Shown one piece after another: positions 7,934 through 17,641 of a stretch of 64,000 nt of DNA (position 1 is its first letter; each line of letters begins with the position of its first letter). The position numbers were made by a program, and so were the translations under genes. Origin of the DNA: Pyruvatibacter sp. HU-CL02332 (lineage in GTDB: Bacteria; Pseudomonadota; Alphaproteobacteria; CGMCC-115125); NCBI RefSeq assembly GCF_040362765.1, contig NZ_BAABWK010000001.1, positions 558,001 to 622,000 of the forward strand. The letters run 5' to 3'. The notes under the pieces were generated by a model that was not told the DNA's origin, did not search any database, and saw only the letters and a list, made by a program, of their open reading frames with translations.

Positions 7934-10135
7934 TTAGCGGACCGTATCAAAGCTCCAGAACGGATTGGCGATGGTCGGGAATCGCGCGGCAAACTGGAGT
8001 TCCATGCGGAAGACCCCGTCAAACCGAGCGGGAATGCCGAACCTCAGCACGCCACCGGCCTTCTTCCATTCCACAATCCGCCGAAATGCGCCATCTTGCA
8101 GATCAGTTTCCACCTGCGGCCCAAAATCACCGTCTTCGATAACCCGTTCAGGGGCGCCGTAGTGGCGAACAAGCTCGTCCAGCACGTCATTATAGGTCTG
8201 CTCGCGGGTGGTTCGCGCTCCGGTGGCAAAATCGATGATGAGCCCTGTGCGCTCGAGTGACTGAGACGGCGCCTCCAGCACCAGCCGCTGCCGCTGCTCA
8301 ATGCGCTCGAAGTAGCGGCCCAGATAAATCATCGCGCCCCCCAGCCGCACCGGGTTGCCAAGTCCCGACACCGCCAGGCGCTCTTCCGCCAGAACCACAT
8401 CTTTGCCAAGAGCCAGCGTGGTGATGTCCGGTACACCCGGCGCAATGGATGTCACACCGGATGGGGCTGCAATCCCCGCACCCGCCAGTCCCCGTTCCCG
8501 TCCAGACGTGCCCGCAGCCACCCGCGTGGCAAACTGAAACTGATAGCTCGCGGCCACCTGCCAGGCAGATCCAAACCGTCCCGGGTCCGGGTCGTTGGAG
8601 CGGAATTGACCCGTCAAAGCCACCGTGTGCGGACCATCAGTAAAGCTGTATCGCCCGCGCGCGGACACATCCCGCGTATCCGTCGCCCCGCGATGTCCTT
8701 CCTGAAACAGCACCGATGCGTCGCCCGTCAGGCTGTGGCCGCTATCGGTAAACAAAGACGCTGCAATGCGCGGGCCCGCTGCCATGATCCGCTGACCCCC
8801 CACACGCTCCCGCCGCAACACGATGCCCGGCGCAATGGTCCCCGACACATCCCCCCAAATAACGCGGCGCGACGCAGAAAAATCACCCAGCACGGTAGAG
8901 CGATCCACATCCGCTGCCGACTTGTCCTCGGTCTGCTGGACCTGCAGGCGCGCAATACCAGTCCAGTCCTCGGTCAGCGCCCAGTTGCTCACAACATCCA
9001 CAGACCAGGCTTCGTTGGTCGTGGTCCCATTGCTGCTTTGTGTCTCGCGCCAGAAAGCATCGAAGGTGCCGGCACCACCGGCGCGGTCAAACAGATCAAC
9101 CCAGCTGCCAGAAAACCCGATCGTGTCCGTGTCTATCTGGTTGGCGGTGCTGCGCGCATCGCGAAATCCCTGATATCTCAGCTCCGCATCGCCAATGCCG
9201 TCAAACACATGCCCAACCCGCGTTTCCCAGAACTGCCGGTCAGGCGTCACTGCAGCGCCAACAGGCCGATAGGTCTGCGAAAAATCTTCAAACCGCGCCC
9301 CGTAACGAAGGCCGGTCGCGTTTCGGCCGGAGATGGACGCAGATACCGCCGTGCCGCCCTTGTTGCGCTTGGCGGCCCTATCAAGGGTTTCACCCAGCAG
9401 CGCACCAATCTCTGCTTCAAGCTCCAGCGCATGGTCCGCAACGGAAAAATCCTGCGCCCCGGCCAGCGAGAACACACCACTGTGTAACGTCCCCTGTGCC
9501 GTGTCCTGACTGGCCGCATAACCCGTTGCCACAAGCGATGGCCCGCCAGGCAGTTCCACCAAATGTGACGCGCCGGCCACCAGCGTGTCGTCAAACTGCT
9601 CGCTCAGGGCATCATTGTAGCTGCGCGCTGTCGTCCCGCCGAAAACCTGCAGGGAGTGAAAAGCTGACGACGCATTTTTCTGAAGCTGTATCTCCGCGCG
9701 CGCACCCTTCAAGGGCAGCTGCAAGGTCCGCAGGGACGTAAACCCGAAATAGTCCCCGAGCTCCACGCGCCACGGAATGACCCCATCACCGCGCTCCCCC
9801 ACCAGCGAAAACCGCTCCGCAGACAGAAGGTCGGTGCGGCCACGAAACTCTGATGGGTCGATGGCACCAAAAAAGCTGCCGCGCCAATTTTCAAACCGGG
9901 ACACCTGACGGGAGAACCGAAGGTCCAGCTCACCAAAGGCATCCGCTTCGTTTTCGCCTAAGGCGCACGCCCCATCGTCCCCGGCACAATCGCGATACTC
10001 GACCTGTCCGAACACTGACCCGTTGATAAGCCAGTCGTCGTCCACACCCTGAGCACGGGCAGGCCCGCCAATTGTGGCCAGCGCAATCAAGGCGGCAAGT
10101 GCGAGACCCGCCACATACCCATGACGTCTCATCAT
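7934..10135 (-). CDS. Exported protein with beta-barrel-like region and globular C-terminal domain (cassette gene 4)
   Basis: 733 residues with a signal peptide (basic start, hydrophobic core, A-R-A-Q cleavage near residue 28). Residues ~35-560 are rich in alternating polar/hydrophobic strands with aromatic girdle residues ('LELEAEIGALLG', 'TRVGHVFDGIGDAELRYQGFRD', 'SASRRVIWGDVSGTIAPGIVLRRERVGG'), as in an outer-membrane barrel. From ~600 the sequence changes to a soluble alpha/beta domain ('YNDVLDELVRHYGAPERVI') and ends '...FWSFDTVR', without the usual terminal Phe. It overlaps the preceding gene (ATGA), behind a GAGG site. I do not recognise the family. In context it is the best candidate for the membrane-anchoring or export component of the cassette. 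Confidence 0.7.
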   Translation of the reverse strand: MMRRHGYVAGLALAALIALATIGGPARAQGVDDDWLINGSVFGQVEYRDCAGDDGACALGENEADAFGELDLRFSRQVSRFENWRGSFFGAIDPSEFRGRTDLLSAERFSLVGERGDGVIPWRVELGDYFGFTSLRTLQLPLKGARAEIQLQKNASSAFHSLQVFGGTTARSYNDALSEQFDDTLVAGASHLVELPGGPSLVATGYAASQDTAQGTLHSGVFSLAGAQDFSVADHALELEAEIGALLGETLDRAAKRNKGGTAVSASISGRNATGLRYGARFEDFSQTYRPVGAAVTPDRQFWETRVGHVFDGIGDAELRYQGFRDARSTANQIDTDTIGFSGSWVDLFDRAGGAGTFDAFWRETQSSNGTTTNEAWSVDVVSNWALTEDWTGIARLQVQQTEDKSAADVDRSTVLGDFSASRRVIWGDVSGTIAPGIVLRRERVGGQRIMAAGPRIAASLFTDSGHSLTGDASVLFQEGHRGATDTRDVSARGRYSFTDGPHTVALTGQFRSNDPDPGRFGSAWQVAASYQFQFATRVAAGTSGRERGLAGAGIAAPSGVTSIAPGVPDITTLALGKDVVLAEERLAVSGLGNPVRLGGAMIYLGRYFERIEQRQRLVLEAPSQSLERTGLIIDFATGARTTREQTYNDVLDELVRHYGAPERVIEDGDFGPQVETDLQDGAFRRIVEWKKAGGVLRFGIPARFDGVFRMELQFAARFPTIANPFWSFDTVR

Positions 10136-10692
10136 TGCGCCACCTCTTCAAACCGGTGACGCAGCAACAACACATAGTCATTGGTCCCACGCAGCAGACG
10201 GAAAGCGCCCGTCGTGCGGTCCACATACTCAACCTGCGTCTGTGCGGTCAGTGTGATGCGCGACACCAGAAGGTCGCCGTCATCCGGCCCTTCGTCCCGG
10301 CGCAACACCTGGTCCAGCGTGTCGATGTTGGAAATACCAAGCACCCGCACCTGCGCATCGCGCGGCACCAGCAGCGTGGCGGTGTCTGCCAGTCGATCGC
10401 CATCCACAAAGTCATCGCTCAGCGCCCGTCGGAACTGTGTGTCCCCCCAGTTAGCCAGCACCTGTTCCATCGCCTGCTCCACATGCAGGCGGGGAATGGG
10501 CACAGGACCCGACAGCGGTTCGCCAACAAGGTCTGACAGAGCGGCTGCATCCTCGCCAACAGCCAGCAACTCCGGCGTCATAATGCGGTCCGCAGACCTG
10601 AACCCACGCGCATCCGCACCGGGAGCCACAACGAGCGAGCCAGTCAACAATGCGGCAACGAGAATGCCACTCAGGCGACATGTCATACCCAT
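10132..10692 (-). CDS. Exported hypothetical protein (cassette gene 3)
   Basis: 186 residues from the ATG at 10692, which overlaps the upstream gene's stop (TGATG) and has a GGAG site nine bases before it. A signal peptide is plain ('LSGILVAALLTGSLVVAPGADARG', cleavage near residue 30). The mature part is mixed alpha/beta and ends with a charged strand pattern, 'TLTAQTQVEYVDRTTGAFRLLRGTNDYVLLLRHRF'. No enzymatic motif or cysteine is visible in the mature region. I do not recognise a family. Its fixed place between two other exported proteins, with coupled translation on both sides, suggests that it works in stoichiometric association with them in the periplasm or at the surface. Confidence 0.7.
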   Translation of the reverse strand: MGMTCRLSGILVAALLTGSLVVAPGADARGFRSADRIMTPELLAVGEDAAALSDLVGEPLSGPVPIPRLHVEQAMEQVLANWGDTQFRRALSDDFVDGDRLADTATLLVPRDAQVRVLGISNIDTLDQVLRRDEGPDDGDLLVSRITLTAQTQVEYVDRTTGAFRLLRGTNDYVLLLRHRFEEVAQ

Positions 10693-11525
10693 CACAGCCG
10701 CTCCACCTGAATGGTCGCCAGACCAAGAGTGACTGTCACAGTCACGCGGAACCGCTGTCCCCCCGGCGATCGAATGATGACCACTCGGGTCGAGTTGACA
10801 GGAATAGTGAGAGACAGACCGGGCGCAATTGCCGGGTTCTCAAAGACAAACCCGTTATTGGGAAAGATGAACGCGTCGGTCGCATTGTCCGTCCCTGCCT
10901 GCAGGCTTTCACCGCCCGCCGCTGGTAGAACCGTGATCGTGCCGTCATTGGCAATGGCGAAATAGGCCGTAGACGGTGGCGCACCCAGCGTGTCCTGCGC
11001 CGTCTGAACAACACCGCCGCCCGCACCCGCGCCTGCATTGTTGCCCGCATCATTGCCTGCGTTGTTTCCAGCATTGCCCGCATTGCCCCCGCCAAACTCG
11101 GTGACGATCAACCGCTCCGACAGCGGATCAAACCCGACCACATGAATGCTGCGGTCTGCCTCGACACCAAGCAACTCAAGCAGCGCTTTGCCGCCATCAG
11201 GCAGCTGCGTCACGATTCCATCGCCAAGCGGGCCTGGTCCCGGGCCGGGGCCCGGCGGTCCCGGCGGACCGGGCGGCGGCTTTGGTCCATCGCCGCCTTT
11301 CTTCTTGTCGTCATCATCCAGCGGCGGCCCCTCGCATTTGCCACCGAACACCGCAACGAAGCGATGCTGCAGCTCAAGCAGACCGACCGTGAACTCACTG
11401 CGGTTTGACTGAGCAAACCCCTGCGGCGATCCGAAGTCTTCAATGGACAACGCCTGCGCGGAAACGGTCAGGCCGCACCAGGCAGCCCCGGCAACAAGTG
11501 CCAGTTGGAAAACGGAGCGGGTCAT
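10692..11525 (-). CDS. Exported Gly/Pro-rich protein with collagen-like and Asn-Ala-Gly tracts (cassette gene 2)
   Basis: 277 residues from ATG 11525, two bases after the upstream stop and nine after a GGGGGA site; a TTG at 11531 is possible. A signal peptide ends at A-Q-A-L near residue 26. A short conserved-looking part has one cysteine ('VFGGKCEGPP'). Next come an acidic/lysine patch, a P-P-G/P-G-P tract at about 85-97 and, near residue 150-170, a G-N-A-G-N/N-A-G-N-D tract. The last ~100 residues look like a beta-domain ending '...RVVIIRSPGGQRFRVTVTVTLGLATIQVERL'. The collagen-like tract is short (about four triplets), so a triple helix is uncertain; it may be a flexible spacer. No family is recognised. 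Confidence 0.7.
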   Translation of the reverse strand: MTRSVFQLALVAGAAWCGLTVSAQALSIEDFGSPQGFAQSNRSEFTVGLLELQHRFVAVFGGKCEGPPLDDDDKKKGGDGPKPPPGPPGPPGPGPGPGPLGDGIVTQLPDGGKALLELLGVEADRSIHVVGFDPLSERLIVTEFGGGNAGNAGNNAGNDAGNNAGAGAGGGVVQTAQDTLGAPPSTAYFAIANDGTITVLPAAGGESLQAGTDNATDAFIFPNNGFVFENPAIAPGLSLTIPVNSTRVVIIRSPGGQRFRVTVTVTLGLATIQVERL

Positions 11526-11527
11526 GA

Positions 11528-14500
11528 TCAATTCCCCCCACCCGTATCAACAGCACCAAATCCTTGCGCACTCGCACCCTGCGCATTAAGCCCCGCTTCC
11601 ACCGACGCCAGATCGCGGGCAAGTGCATCCGCGTTTGTGCCCGGCGTGCTGTCCACAAGTTTGCGTGCCGCATCAAATGCGTCTGCCGTTTTCTGCGCGC
11701 GATCTGAGAAGTTGCGCCCGGCAGTCGTGACATCGTTCTGCAGCGCTGCAATCGCATCCGCGTCAGCGCCCGATGCCTTGGCGTCCTCCAGTCGTTTGGA
11801 CTTTGTCACCAGTTCAGCCAGCGCCTGATTTTGCTCAGTCTTGGCCCGCTTGAGAGCCTGCGACACTTGTTGGGCCTGCTGCGCCTGCGTATCGACGGGC
11901 TGATTGCCCACGGCTACACGTTCCGCGGCATCATCGGCAAGGTTGCGAAGCCGCTGCGCCTTAGCATCGAGTGCCGCCGCCTCATTGACCGCATTCACCG
12001 CGACACCACCCTGACTGCCTGACGCAACATTCGGTGCCCTGGCTTCGTCAAACTCTTTCAAAACCTGCTTGAACGCATCGGGGTCCGCAAAGGCTTCGCG
12101 CAGGTCTTTATCAATCAGGTCCTTGAGGCCACCGGCACCGCCCTGACCAAACTTGGTCGCCGTGCCGTCCTGAATGCTTTTGGCCAGACCTTCATCGCCC
12201 GCCGCCGTCGCCTTCCTGAAGCTGTTGAACTCGCTCGCGCCCACATTGGTGGAGCCGAACAGCCGTTCACCCAATACCGCCCGGGCGGACTCCGGTGACC
12301 CTGCTTCAATGACGCTGCCGGATTCCACAAAACCAGCGGACGCATTCGGCCCATCGCCCTTGACCAGAATATTGCCGGGGTTGGTATCAAACGGCACCAG
12401 CTTGGCATTCGCCGCCTTGTCGAACTCGCGCAGAATGGCGATCTGCTGTTCTCGGGTCAGTTTGACATTGCCCTCGCCCGCCACCTTCTCGATGTCCTCA
12501 AGAGTCTTGGCGCCATCGGGGAACCGCTCCTGCTTGAAGAACGGGACCTCTACTTCAACACCATCAATCACACGCTTGACCGTGCCCTGCCCCTTGATGT
12601 CCAGCGAGTTGACGCCCGCGTCTGCAAATTTCTCAGCGCCGCTGATCTGGTCATCGACAATCTCACGCGCCGCATCCGGATCAAACTTGGCACCCGCTCC
12701 GCCTTCACCTTTTGACACAACCTTGCCGGTACCATCCACACGGACGTTCTCAACCAGCTTGATAACGTCAGAGTTGGGATCACCGATCTTCTCAGCCACC
12801 ACGTTGGCCGTGCGGCCTTCGCCGACAGCCCCTGCCGGGTCGTCCAGCGCTGCAGCCCGATCCGCAGGCAGGTCAATCGCACCCTTGTCCACCTTGCCCG
12901 GCGTCAGCGGCGGCCCCTGATTGCCCGCAGCCGCCTGCTGCTTGAGCGCTTCCTGCCGAGCTTTCTCTTTCGCAGCTCTGGCCGCAGCCTCAGCTTCATC
13001 GGCTGCGTCATCAAGCGCGTCAGCAACCTTCTCTTCTGGCGTTCCAGGCTTCTTGTTCAGGTTCTCGAAAAAATCTGACACGTCATCCGGAGGGCCATCG
13101 CCTGGGTCTGCAATGTCGTCGGCAAAGTCGAACGCGCCGCCATCAGACGTCCCGTCGCCATCACCAAAAATGTCAGCAAGTTCATCCTCGACGCTGCGAC
13201 CGCCCCCTGAACCGTCGGTCGCGTCCCCCACCTCATCAAGAAAATTGCCATTGCCGGTGTCTGGCTCCGCATCCCCGAAGATATCTGCCAGATCATCCTC
13301 GACGGTTCTGCCGCTGCCGGTCCCGCCAGCAGGGACATCTTGGTCAGCCGCCTTGGCAAGATCATCGAGCACATTGGCGTTGTCGGCCTGCTCAGCCAGC
13401 GCATCCACCTGATCCTCGATACGCTTCAGCTCATTGGCCTCATCCACCGTGTCGGCAAATTTCTGCGTATCCCGAATGGCCTGCTCCGCCACATCGTCAA
13501 GCGGACCAAGACCCTTGGTGGCACGCAGATCATTTGCAGCCGCAATCGCTTCGTCGGTGGACGTAAAGACCTTGCCGCCCACCTTCAGCGATCTGGCACT
13601 GACAACAAGAGCTTCGCCGCCAAGCAGATCAAGCGCGAGAAACACGCCCGCAGATTGGCCCTTATTGATGGTTTGCTGTTCTTCGCTTTCCACGAGAAAA
13701 CGTGTGGCTTCCTCTGTCAGATCTGTGGGTTCATCTCGCACAGCCTGCGCAATGGCAATACCGATTGCTTCGCCAACAGCCTCCGCATCATTCACCGTCA
13801 GTTCCGCAATATTGCCGATGCCAAAGCCGCCAAGCTGGTTCAACACCACCGCCCCACTCAGCTTGTCTTCCTGGCGCACCCGCAGATCTTCATCAATGAA
13901 GGCAGCAATGTCCGTACCCACCACAATGTCAAAGCCGCGTGGCAGAGATTCTGTGAGGAATTTTTTGGCATCCCTGAGCTGCTGGTCATCGGAAAACGCT
14001 GCCCCCAACGTGATGCCGTTGAGAACTGCCTTGTTAGCGGTCTCAAAGATTGTCCGCAGCCCTACAAAGAAGTCTTCGATGGCAACCAGCCCGCCAAGGC
14101 TTTCAACCTCTTTGATCTGCTTCGTGATTTCGCGCTGCGCCGCCAGCGCCCTGTCGCCATCCATCTTGAAGCGCAGGGGGAAGAAATCCTCAAAGCCTTC
14201 AACAACCGTTTCCAACGGCGGCGGCAAAATCGCAGCCTTGCGAAATACTTCCGGCGATACATCACGGTCAGGATGCTCGGGAAACGTCGTGTTCATGCCC
14301 GGCAGACCGGTAACAAGCCCCTCGCCCTCAGTGCCCGCAAGCACAGATGTGCCCTCACCGGGAGGCGCGCCGAGACAATGTTCGAAAGTGCCCGCATTGA
14401 ACAGCGCTGCCAGACGCTGCTTCTTGCTCTGGTTGTCCGCACGCAACTGTGCCAACTGGTCTTTGCGCGCTTGAATTTTTTCCCGCGCTTCCTTCAGCTC

Positions 14501-16315
14501 CTTGGCAATGAAGGCGTCAACTTTTGTGCGCGTCTTGCTGCTTTCCGCGCTGGCTCGTGCGGAGATGTCCGCAAGTTCCTTTTTGAACTTCGCGACCTGT
14601 GCCAGCTGTCCAGCGCCGGACGTGAAGATGAAGGGAATGGCGGGTTCTGGAATGTCCGCCCCAAGCAACATGGGAATAAACAACGCATCGTCGCCCAACG
14701 CCGCACGTCGTTTGCGATCCCGCTCAAGCGCGGCGCGTTGTCCGGCTGCCAGGATGGTCTGTGCCTGCTTGCTTTGCAGCACGCCCGCCCGAGCCGCCCG
14801 CTCCACATAGTCGGCCATCAGGTCATTTTGATCCTGCAGCGGCGCCCGAAAGTCGCGCAACGGTGTCAGAATGTCATTGAGGAAGATCGCTTCAATGTCT
14901 TTTTGGCCCGCATCATGAAACAGGACGTCCAGCAGCAATGCTTCCATCAGATCCGTCACCGGTTCACAGGACTGCCTGAGAAGCTTTGTCCGCCGCGCGA
15001 TTTCGCGTTCGCAGTCACGGCAGGCCTTTTGATCCGCGGGCGGCACCTTCGGTGCAGACGCTTGCTTGAGGAAACGTTCAGGCTCAAGCTGGGTGCGGAC
15101 GACAATCCTGCCGTCCTCATCAAGCTCATGCAGGGGAATGGGCACCAGGTCACCGGGCTGCTGCGACCCGCTGACATTCTCAAACCCGCCCTCTGCCAGC
15201 TCGTCTTCAGGCAGTTCTACTTTCAGGCCACCTGCACCATCGGCAAGGTTTTGAGCGGCAGGCTTCGTGCCACCGCAATTGAGCACCTGGATGATGTGCC
15301 GCACCGGTGCCGGCCGAAAATTCTGCGGCCCGCCGCCAAGGTCTGCTTCGTCAATGGATGCAAACAGCTGGTAATTGCCGTCACCATATTTCCGGGCATC
15401 GAAAACGAAATTGCCCCGCGGCCCGATCTTCTCGAGCACTTCACCGTCCCGCCGCAATTCCCACGTCGCCCGGCTGTAGGGTTCCTCGCGGACATTTTTT
15501 GAGAACACCGCTGAATTGGTTTCACTAGTGATGTCCGCCACCCGCACCGTCGAGGTGAAGGTATAGGTCTTGCAGTGATTGCGATTGTCCGGGTCCCGCG
15601 GATCACGCTTGGACCCGATGACAAACGCCGTTCCCACAACCTTCGAGCCCTTGGGATTATCAATCCGGATCTGCGTAATGCCGCGCGTCCGGTTCTGGCC
15701 GGCAGAGACAACCGTCACCGTCTGCGACACGGCCCCGATCCGGAACGGTGACAACCGCCCCTTGGCCCGCACGGTCAGCCGGTAGACACCCGGCCGGGGC
15801 AGCTTGGCTAGGCCCTGGGCAAACTCGCCAAGTTTTTCAAAGGGCGCATCCGCATTGTCAGCGCGTTCAACAATCAGATCATATTGCTCCACCACCGGCT
15901 GGCGTTTGCCTGCATCGCGTGAGAACGCCTGCGTGACATGGCAATCCGTGGAGAAGCCCAGAATCTTTTCAATAATGACGTAGTCACCAACCGGACGGAT
16001 GGCGGGCTGGTTGGCAAAGTCGATGACCGTCGGCAGTTTGAAGTAAAGCTGCTTGAGCACACGCTGCCCGACGCCTGCCTGCGTAAAGCCGTCCTTGCTC
16101 AGTTCGCGCGCAAGCCCCGCCTGCGCCTGCGCTGCCTCCTGCGACGACAGCACACCAATCTGGTCCGGAAACCCGCACACAGCCCCCTGCGCATGGGCCG
16201 GAGCCACCTGCAGCGCCAGCAAAGCCGCTACCGCCAGAGCACCAATGGCACTCAGCAGTCCCGTTCGGTGGATCGAAAGACGACAAACTGACGAAAAGAC
16301 GCTGGAACGCAGCAC
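11528..16315 (-). CDS. Giant exported protein with coiled coils, acidic repeats and a kinase-like domain (cassette gene 1)
   Basis: 1595 residues from GTG 16315, which has a GGGGGA site ten bases upstream. A signal peptide ends at A-P-A-H-A (~42). Residues ~45-400 look beta-rich; a C-R-D-C pair lies near 430, and a long coiled coil spans ~570-640. Two copies of an acidic motif G-R-(T/S)-V-E-D-(D/E)-L-A-D-I-F-G-D occur at about 1000-1017 and 1039-1056. Residues ~1160-1420 resemble a protein kinase: G-loop V-G-E-G-R-T-A-N-V-V (from 1164), V-I-K with K1186, a hinge-like F-K-Q-E-R-F-P-D-G, catalytic loop D1310-T-N-P-G-N1315, and E1331-S-G where DFG is expected. A helical, Gln/Ala-rich C-terminus follows. 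Activity and partners are unknown; the fold assignment is by motif order. Confidence 0.8.
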   Translation of the reverse strand: MLRSSVFSSVCRLSIHRTGLLSAIGALAVAALLALQVAPAHAQGAVCGFPDQIGVLSSQEAAQAQAGLARELSKDGFTQAGVGQRVLKQLYFKLPTVIDFANQPAIRPVGDYVIIEKILGFSTDCHVTQAFSRDAGKRQPVVEQYDLIVERADNADAPFEKLGEFAQGLAKLPRPGVYRLTVRAKGRLSPFRIGAVSQTVTVVSAGQNRTRGITQIRIDNPKGSKVVGTAFVIGSKRDPRDPDNRNHCKTYTFTSTVRVADITSETNSAVFSKNVREEPYSRATWELRRDGEVLEKIGPRGNFVFDARKYGDGNYQLFASIDEADLGGGPQNFRPAPVRHIIQVLNCGGTKPAAQNLADGAGGLKVELPEDELAEGGFENVSGSQQPGDLVPIPLHELDEDGRIVVRTQLEPERFLKQASAPKVPPADQKACRDCEREIARRTKLLRQSCEPVTDLMEALLLDVLFHDAGQKDIEAIFLNDILTPLRDFRAPLQDQNDLMADYVERAARAGVLQSKQAQTILAAGQRAALERDRKRRAALGDDALFIPMLLGADIPEPAIPFIFTSGAGQLAQVAKFKKELADISARASAESSKTRTKVDAFIAKELKEAREKIQARKDQLAQLRADNQSKKQRLAALFNAGTFEHCLGAPPGEGTSVLAGTEGEGLVTGLPGMNTTFPEHPDRDVSPEVFRKAAILPPPLETVVEGFEDFFPLRFKMDGDRALAAQREITKQIKEVESLGGLVAIEDFFVGLRTIFETANKAVLNGITLGAAFSDDQQLRDAKKFLTESLPRGFDIVVGTDIAAFIDEDLRVRQEDKLSGAVVLNQLGGFGIGNIAELTVNDAEAVGEAIGIAIAQAVRDEPTDLTEEATRFLVESEEQQTINKGQSAGVFLALDLLGGEALVVSARSLKVGGKVFTSTDEAIAAANDLRATKGLGPLDDVAEQAIRDTQKFADTVDEANELKRIEDQVDALAEQADNANVLDDLAKAADQDVPAGGTGSGRTVEDDLADIFGDAEPDTGNGNFLDEVGDATDGSGGGRSVEDELADIFGDGDGTSDGGAFDFADDIADPGDGPPDDVSDFFENLNKKPGTPEEKVADALDDAADEAEAAARAAKEKARQEALKQQAAAGNQGPPLTPGKVDKGAIDLPADRAAALDDPAGAVGEGRTANVVAEKIGDPNSDVIKLVENVRVDGTGKVVSKGEGGAGAKFDPDAAREIVDDQISGAEKFADAGVNSLDIKGQGTVKRVIDGVEVEVPFFKQERFPDGAKTLEDIEKVAGEGNVKLTREQQIAILREFDKAANAKLVPFDTNPGNILVKGDGPNASAGFVESGSVIEAGSPESARAVLGERLFGSTNVGASEFNSFRKATAAGDEGLAKSIQDGTATKFGQGGAGGLKDLIDKDLREAFADPDAFKQVLKEFDEARAPNVASGSQGGVAVNAVNEAAALDAKAQRLRNLADDAAERVAVGNQPVDTQAQQAQQVSQALKRAKTEQNQALAELVTKSKRLEDAKASGADADAIAALQNDVTTAGRNFSDRAQKTADAFDAARKLVDSTPGTNADALARDLASVEAGLNAQGASAQGFGAVDTGGGN

Positions 16316-16396: not shown

Positions 16397-16416
16397 ACCT
16401 GTCCAATAGGACAGGA
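16397..16416 (-). promoter_or_regulatory. Lux-box-like operator before the exported-protein cassette
   Basis: The 20-bp element ACCTGT-N8-ACAGGA contains a perfect inverted repeat CCTGTCC-AATA-GGACAGG (16398-16415). Its half-sites and spacing match the Vibrio lux box (ACCTGT-N8-ACAGGT) and the CT-N12-AG rule for LuxR-type sites. It is centred about 91 bases upstream of the GTG of the giant gene. A weak -10-like GATATT on the minus strand (16373-16368) lies about 36 bases from the centre, fitting activation from a -42-type position. The adjacent upstream gene encodes a LuxR protein. Confidence 0.72.
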
Positions 16417-16467: not shown

Positions 16468-17328
16468 CTAGTTGCTCAAAAGATTACTGCGCGCCGCAAT
16501 GGCCACCACCTCAACCCGTGAGGACGCTCCCAGCTTCTTCATCAGATTGTTCACATGGAACTTGATGGTCCGCTCACTGATGTTCAGGGCTTTGGCCATC
16601 TCCGGATTCGAGTCGCCACGTCCAAGCAGAGACAGGCACTCCAGTTCGCGTACGGACAATTGCACGTTGGGTACGTTTTCAAGGTCAAACCCGATAAAGT
16701 CATGCACCGCCACCGCAAAGACACGCGCCAGATCAATCAGCTCCTGACGTTGCGCTGAAATGCGCGCTTCATCAGCTTCGCTTTCACCAAGCACAAAGAA
16801 GTAGACCACCTGAATGCGCCCCGGCGTGTGCACCGGAACGAACAGGTCATAACTGAGGTGATAGTGGCTGGTCAGATCCACCAGCTCCTTTTGGTCCCGC
16901 GTGACATTCTCAGGCGTATAGACATCCGCCGTCGTAAACGGCTCCGTCGCCTTGGCGATGGCCGCCACCGCAAGATCAGTGTCGCGATACCCCTTCCACA
17001 GATACAGGGCCTCATAGGGCTTCATGTGGCGTGGCCCGCGGGTGGTAATCAGAAAGTCGCTCGACTGCGGCGACGCCCATGCGTCGCGGCGGCAGGAGAA
17101 ATACAGGAGACCATCAACAGCCATCGACTGGAGAATGGCCTCAAGCACATTCACCGCCTGATTGTAATTCGACAGCGAGCCTACCTGCGCCAGAAATCGC
17201 GCCGCCGGCGGAAGCATGTCACCGGGCACCGCTCCATTGGTTCTGGCAGCAGCTTTGGCCCCTGTCCGTCCTGCGGTCTTTCCGGCTTTTTTAGTTGATG
17301 ACCCGGCCACCTTTTGCCCAGACGCCAT
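16468..17328 (-). CDS. LuxR-family regulator with autoinducer-binding-type domain
   Basis: 286 residues from the ATG at 17328; a TTG at 17334 is less likely. The C-terminal GerE/LuxR helix-turn-helix is typical: 'LSVRELECLSLLGRGDSNPEMAKALNISERTIKFHVNNLMKKLGASSRVEVVA' at about 225-278. The middle matches the autoinducer-binding fold ('WKGYRDTDLAVAAIAKATEPF', 'SYDLFVPVHTPG'), but the usual D-P is D-L and the Trp after 'PF' is Thr, so the pocket is altered. Residues 1-33 form a Lys/Ala/Arg-rich tail not usual in the family. No luxI-type synthase is in the window, so it may be a solo regulator. A lux box lies just downstream, before the giant gene. Confidence 0.88.
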   Translation of the reverse strand: MASGQKVAGSSTKKAGKTAGRTGAKAAARTNGAVPGDMLPPAARFLAQVGSLSNYNQAVNVLEAILQSMAVDGLLYFSCRRDAWASPQSSDFLITTRGPRHMKPYEALYLWKGYRDTDLAVAAIAKATEPFTTADVYTPENVTRDQKELVDLTSHYHLSYDLFVPVHTPGRIQVVYFFVLGESEADEARISAQRQELIDLARVFAVAVHDFIGFDLENVPNVQLSVRELECLSLLGRGDSNPEMAKALNISERTIKFHVNNLMKKLGASSRVEVVAIAARSNLLSN

Positions 17329-17641
17329 GTGCAACGCGTTCCCCTAGCCCAAACACCTGCAAAAGGGCAGAAAACCGCACTCCTCGCAGGGGAAGGACAT
17401 TAGCATTCTCCCCCGCCGACGGCACCTTGAGATTTTGACCATGGGCGCGGCCAATCAATCGAACACAAAACCAGACACCACCGGTATCCAGGAAATCCCA
17501 CCGGATAAAACCGAGTGACCTATCTCAATGAAGACGATCAGTTTTAGGCGCAGCATGCAGGTAAGCGTGGCCTTGGAACGTGTAGTGCGTCCATCGCAGG
17601 CATCAGTACGGCACTCTCAACCCAAACCGGAGGACTGCCCT
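17329..17641. other. Divergent promoter region between luxR-type gene and DUF2267 gene
   Basis: About 310 bases with no credible gene. A partial dyad CTGC-N6-GCAG sits at 17357-17370, 29 bases from the regulator start. Its spacing is two bases short of the lux box at 16397, so it is only a weak autoregulation candidate. A GGAGGA ribosome site at about 17630 belongs to the DUF2267 gene. Confidence 0.5.

Follow-up and report, generated by a model that had tools for sequence, protein, structure and literature searches.

Closest described systems

ATP is scarce outside the cytoplasm, which makes an exported domain of the kinase kind unusual. To our knowledge, bacterial protein phosphorylation outside the cytoplasm is little documented, and how it would be supplied with ATP is debatable. 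The 64-kb stretch of alphaproteobacterial DNA analyzed here (the window) encodes a 1595-amino-acid protein that is most likely exported through Sec to the envelope or surface and carries a kinase-like domain near its C-terminus. Like bacterial Hanks-type Ser/Thr kinases (PF00069), this domain has a glycine-rich loop, a VIK lysine, and a D-x4-N loop, and it shows significant profile-profile similarity to them. However, it lies below Pfam detection, it is exported rather than cytosolic, and the HRDxK lysine and DFG aspartate are both replaced in its branch of the family. No PF00069 kinase was found in the window's genome at an E value of 1e-10.

Other systems invite comparison with the locus. 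CotH and Fam20 have kinase-like folds that are likewise divergent, and they work on surface structures or outside the cytosol, as the window's domain would if it acts. Neither the 1595-residue protein nor the homologous domains have a Pfam match to CotH (PF08757) or Fam20 (PF06702), and we do not claim membership in either family. CotH phosphorylates spore-coat proteins that are encoded beside it (PMC7821199) and is present in cellulosomes, where its role is unclear (PMC12484212). The lantibiotic-synthetase-type kinases of polymorphic-toxin-related systems likewise place a kinase domain in a large secreted protein, but they have a motif of their own, DxHxEN, and another secretion context (PMC3482391), and no immunity gene was recognized here. 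In the minimal effector kinases represented by HopBF1, the N-lobe aligns weakly with that of distant members of our family (E = 0.06, not significant), while delivery and architecture differ from those of the window protein. With LuxR/AHL promoters, the locus shares a lux-box-like sequence, CCTGT-N8-ACAGG, adjoining a gene for a protein with an autoinducer-binding domain. We know of no described quorum-sensing target in which an exported kinase-like protein and a barrel-like protein form an operon. Our analysis points to a new, sequence-divergent family of exported kinase-like proteins, encoded in a conserved envelope operon that is probably under LuxR control.

A large exported protein with a kinase-like domain

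The gene and the parts of its product are as follows.
11528..16315, minus strand: gene for the protein with the kinase-like domain (open reading frame, 1595 aa, GTG start; orthologs in G003 and G083)
16187..16315, minus strand: Sec signal peptide, residues 1-43 (hydrophobic core and A-x-A-like motif)
14375..14968, minus strand: region flanked by Cys450 and Cys647, residues 450-647, probably helical (shared cysteines, blastp)
13154..13315, minus strand: acidic linker in which (T/S)VED(D/E)LADIFGD occurs twice (from the sequence)
12041..12838, minus strand: kinase-like domain, residues ~1160-1425 (alignments, PDB profile searches, hhalign with shuffled controls)
12797..12826, minus strand: glycine-rich loop VGEGRTANVV, residues 1164-1173 (sequence, alignments)
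12758..12760, minus strand: K1186, the beta3 VIK lysine (alignments)
12371..12388, minus strand: catalytic loop D1310-T-N-P-G-N1315 (all seven homologs keep D, P, and N)
12323..12325, minus strand: E1331 at the position of the DFG aspartate (ESG; alignment)

From the N-terminus, the protein consists of the signal peptide, an N-terminal region, the cysteine-flanked helical region, the acidic linker, the kinase-like domain, and a helical, low-complexity tail. The signal peptide has its hydrophobic core at about residues 24-35 and an A-H-A/Q cleavage motif near residue 43; it evolves fast (dN/dS of 0.33 against an 89%-identical ortholog). Signal peptides are present in all seven full-length proteins examined, that is, the window protein and six homologs, and these seven have no other clear transmembrane segment, the exception being a single weak stretch in the G083 protein. 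The export signal noted in a preliminary description of this DNA is therefore shared by the six homologs, and the protein is almost certainly exported from the cytoplasm. We found no export route that would carry it through the outer membrane. C450 and C647 are the sole cysteines common to the seven full-length homologs and may form a disulfide; the region that they enclose gives a blastp match across families. The G083 homolog has its own doubled motif, LRD(L/I)FGD, similar to the repeats of the window's acidic linker, and the doubled motif is possibly a docking peptide.

The preliminary description had offered a secreted effector as one explanation. In the form considered here, the protein or its C-terminal part would be delivered into another cell that has ATP and would modify targets there. 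Some translocated effectors, and a few systems related to polymorphic toxins, do carry kinase domains (PMC9950578, PMC3482391), and the weak PDB profile matches include HopBF1. However, the signal peptide is of the Sec type and not a type III or IV signal, the domain lies within a conserved rather than polymorphic architecture, and no immunity gene, variable C-terminus, or delivery module was recognized. None of our findings supports delivery into other cells, which we consider improbable. A polymorphic toxin was also rejected, as the same C-terminal domain occurs in all kinase-bearing operons and the genes that follow encode exported proteins with signal peptides.

The kinase motifs that the preliminary description had read from this domain each lie at the residue and within the stretch of the window given there. 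VIKL begins at residue 1184, and the hinge-like stretch, FKQERFPDGAKTL, at residue 1260. The glycine-rich loop VGEGRTANVV and K1186 are conserved in G003 and G083, and K1186, D1310, N1315, and E1331 are invariant in the three proteins of the window, G003, and G083, down to 43% identity. Loss of K1186, D1310, and N1315 from homologs had been named beforehand as grounds to abandon a kinase reading; the 43%-identical homolog retains all three. Seven homologs from three families of the class, down to 23% identity, all keep D1310, P1313, and N1315, and D1310 and N1315 were also seen in an eighth homolog. Given this invariance at 43% and 23% identity, the motifs are not a product of chance. An acidic residue (D1214 or E) aligns at the position of the alphaC glutamate in all seven, with the register of the helix uncertain. 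Compared with the 89%-identical ortholog, dN/dS is 0.07 for the kinase-like domain and 0.03 for residues 1290-1345. The domain is under purifying selection.

Homologs and distribution

Among the four genomes of the genus, one besides the window's encodes the 1595-residue protein (G003, ortholog 88-89% identical). The complete genome G001, of the same genus, lacks both this protein and its barrel-like partner, so the kinase operon is accessory. Two scans of genome contigs were made for homologs; the first gave no match and the second gave only one record, CALAHN010000064.1, from a metagenome-assembled alphaproteobacterium (G083), which is 43% identical in the kinase-like domain. No homolog of the domain was found in the phages, plasmids, and viral contigs searched.

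The more distant members were reached through the last gene of the operon, which encodes a 733-residue protein with relatives in four more genomes from two families. Upstream of these relatives are genes for large exported proteins, and the large proteins (G291, G085, G199, and G197) have a glycine loop, a beta3 K or R, D-F-K-P-x-N, and D-x-D. A further genome, G758, contributes an eighth kinase-like domain. In these five further operons, from two other families of the class, the domain is 23-26% identical and occupies the same position in the protein. By blastp, three of the four large proteins match the window protein within residues ~438-830, and it follows that the order of domains is shared as well as the operon. 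The G197 domain is near canonical, with VIK, RDFKPDN, and TDVD.

Weak matches in G025, G038, and G153 were examined and not accepted as family members. Two further open reading frames, of 4040 and 2258 amino acids, contain other kinase-like domains (L064, G170:C1:499355-499930; L067, G004:C53:16838-17089) of the pattern GxGATSxVY ... LD(N/A)K(P/H)DN ... D(P/A)GG, with two in tandem in G004. They match the family profile weakly (E = 1.4e-4 and 7.2e-4).

Similarity to protein kinases

Single-sequence searches give no sign of the fold. The kinase-like domain has no family match in Pfam, NCBIfam, PHROG, or PADLOC, and such searches, including PDB phmmer, returned chance matches only. PF00069 gave no match with the 1595-residue protein at E values up to 1, nor with five homologous domains at values up to 5. 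A match of residues 1267-1294 to DNA-polymerase-lambda fingers (E = 0.022) was below the cut-off and was set aside as chance.

Family profiles give another picture, and support the kinase-like domain proposed in the preliminary description by matching almost only kinases in the PDB. With a profile of seven homologs, 59 of the 60 best PDB matches were protein kinases (best E = 0.015), in register, with G-loop on G-loop and catalytic loop on catalytic loop. With a profile of the window's branch alone, all 24 matches were kinases (best E = 0.56). No individual match is significant by itself at these E values; the joint pattern is the convincing part of the case for kinship. In hhalign, the family scored 44.0 against 16 bacterial Ser/Thr kinases (P = 1.2e-5), whereas none of 100 column-shuffled controls exceeded 22.6 and the reversed alignment reached 10.4. 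The score was 39.4 when the canonical-looking G197 was left out (shuffled maximum, 23.9) and 29.6 for the window's branch alone (maximum of 26.9 in 60 shuffles). The family thus has significant profile similarity to protein kinases over the catalytic core, which is the basis on which we would place it in the protein-kinase-like superfamily. The window's branch gave no significant hhalign score with G197 alone; what connects the two is the f83 branch, along with the architecture and operon that they share. Kinship with APH (PF01636) was rejected, with hhalign scores of 16.1, inside the shuffled range, and 14.7, a value reached in 15 of 60 shuffles.

Structure prediction was of limited help. AlphaFold2 with two sequences, from the window and the G083 record, gave poor models (pLDDT 47.4 and 39.4), and the fold therefore rests on sequence. 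In the weak model, secondary structure elements appear in kinase order and the C-lobe aligns to kinases with Z of ~4; Foldseek and VIA-align ranked kinases at the top without significance (Foldseek best E = 0.89). The poor models and the lack of a curated family match count in favor of coincidental motifs and another fold. However, separate branches each pick out kinases in register and score above all shuffled controls, and D-x-x-P-x-N is invariant, which makes a chance resemblance very improbable. We conclude that residues ~1160-1425 very probably adopt a kinase-like fold.

A conserved envelope operon

The kinase gene is followed by three genes for exported proteins.
10692..11531, minus strand: gene 2, 279-aa exported protein, proline/glycine-rich (shares a few bases with the end of the kinase gene)
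10132..10695, minus strand: gene 3, 187-aa exported protein (homologs in operon loci)
7934..10135, minus strand: gene 4, 733-aa beta-barrel-like outer-membrane protein with a C-terminal globular domain (homologs)

The four genes of the window operon overlap or abut by a few bases. Homologs of the 279-residue protein adjoin the kinase genes in G003 and G083, those of the 187-residue protein occur in nine other operon loci (L033, L034, and L049-L055), and those of the 733-residue protein occur in six other genomes, with 30-36% identity outside the genus. The signal peptide and sequence of the 733-residue protein suggest a barrel; among its relatives there was one sub-threshold match to OMP_b-brl_3. 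A stand-alone, apparently lipoprotein-type copy of its C-terminal globular domain is encoded in G197 (L056:2896-3483; 41% identity).

Three paralogous operons (L049, L050, and L051) encode their own versions of the barrel-like and small exported proteins behind a first gene without the kinase-like domain. The product of this first gene is ~1100 amino acids long, with Ig-like stretches recognized by eye, and the lux-box-like site is missing.

A lux-box-like site and a LuxR-type regulator

Two features lie upstream of the kinase gene.
16398..16415, unstranded: lux-box-like palindrome, CCTGTCCTATTGGACAGG (lies between the genes for the LuxR-type regulator and the kinase-like protein)
16468..17334, minus strand: LuxR-type regulator with autoinducer-binding domain (Pfam GerE, Autoind_bind)

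The regulator matches GerE (2.3e-18) and Autoind_bind (5.7e-7), both above the cut-off, and its gene has the same position in G003. The pattern CCTGT-N8-ACAGG, which we take to resemble a lux box, occurs once in the 64 kb, against 0.04 expected. Its longer form, CCTGTCC-N4-GGACAGG, heads six of the eight kinase operons, and among 109 fetched loci CCTGT-N8-ACAGG was present only in kinase-operon loci (window, G003, G291, G085, G199, and G758). On the plus strand of the locus, the four f83 genomes have it as ACCTGTCCGATCGGACAGGT or ACCTGTCCGACTGGACAGGT, and it lies ahead of a gene for a ~200-residue exported protein, which is first in the operon there. G197 has no exact match to the palindrome, and G083 has too little upstream sequence to judge.

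The window operon has both marks of a LuxR-regulated operon, a lux-box-like palindrome at its head and a LuxR-type gene nearby, and control of the kinase operon through this site is likely. The site suggests a condition for expression and would tie the kinase operon to cell density. The window's genome has two luxI genes (G000:C1:2176169-2176657 and G000:C1:1728836-1729291), and the operon palindrome is absent from both of their 3.5-kb loci. No luxR-type gene was seen beside the f83 operons. In the f83 genomes with the palindrome, luxI was not found at the threshold used, so a solo receptor would be needed there.

Catalytic state of the domain

How might such a protein work? In the explanation that we slightly favor, it forms an atypical kinase-like module that is exported, subject to quorum regulation, and encoded in a conserved envelope operon. 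The protein would be made at high cell density via the adjacent LuxR-type regulator, fold in the oxidizing periplasm or beyond, and be assembled at the outer membrane together with its operon partners. The G-loop and K1186 would bind nucleotide, D1310 would act as base, and N1315 and E1331 would hold metal. The domain would in this way modify a partner in the envelope or at the surface, working as an atypical, probably slow phosphotransferase.

In the window's branch, N1312 replaces the HRDxK lysine, where relatives read D-F-K-P-x-N. The preliminary description had not noted this second substitution, nor the conserved operon with its barrel-like protein, nor the lux-box-like site and the luxR-type gene beside it. 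The change from D to E at the DFG position, already pointed out there, is borne out by alignment: E1331 is E in the window, G003, and G083, and in four other homologs the aligned residue is the D that begins D-x-D. Other branches keep both the HRDxK lysine and the DFG aspartate. At beta3, K1186 is kept in G003, G083, and G197, while the f83 family has K or R.

As the preliminary description suggested, the domain may instead be a pseudokinase or may use another nucleotide or target. A pseudokinase would have a kinase fold and perhaps nucleotide binding but no chemistry, and would act within an outer-membrane complex as a module for binding or assembly. Two catalytic positions are altered in the window's branch (N1312 and E1331), R stands in place of the beta3 lysine in two f83 members, the protein is exported to where ATP is scarce, and the paralogous operons L049-L051 manage without a kinase domain. 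However, even homologs at 23% identity retain the catalytic Asp and Asn without exception, and a pure scaffold would have no need of them. E1331 is also still acidic. CASK is active without the DFG aspartate, and a review reports that the pseudokinase Fam20A became active again once Glu was put at its single non-canonical critical position (PMC4718504). We regard a pseudokinase as a plausible minority reading. As for the atypical phosphotransferase, we hold catalytic activity of the window's own branch to be a tentative proposition, somewhat less likely than not. The broader idea, that these are quorum-regulated, Sec-exported kinases that phosphorylate envelope or surface proteins beyond the cytoplasm of Gram-negative bacteria, with one branch having changed DFG D to E and the catalytic-loop K to N, seems rather unlikely in its full form.

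The natural variants of the family, namely the near-canonical G197, the window's branch with its changed DFG and lysine positions, and the f83 members with K or R at beta3, offer a route to testing function, nucleotide, and target. The f83 kinase domains (L052, L053, and L054) also share a conserved pair of cysteines in the C-lobe, DGV(L/D)PCCP, which is absent from the window's branch.
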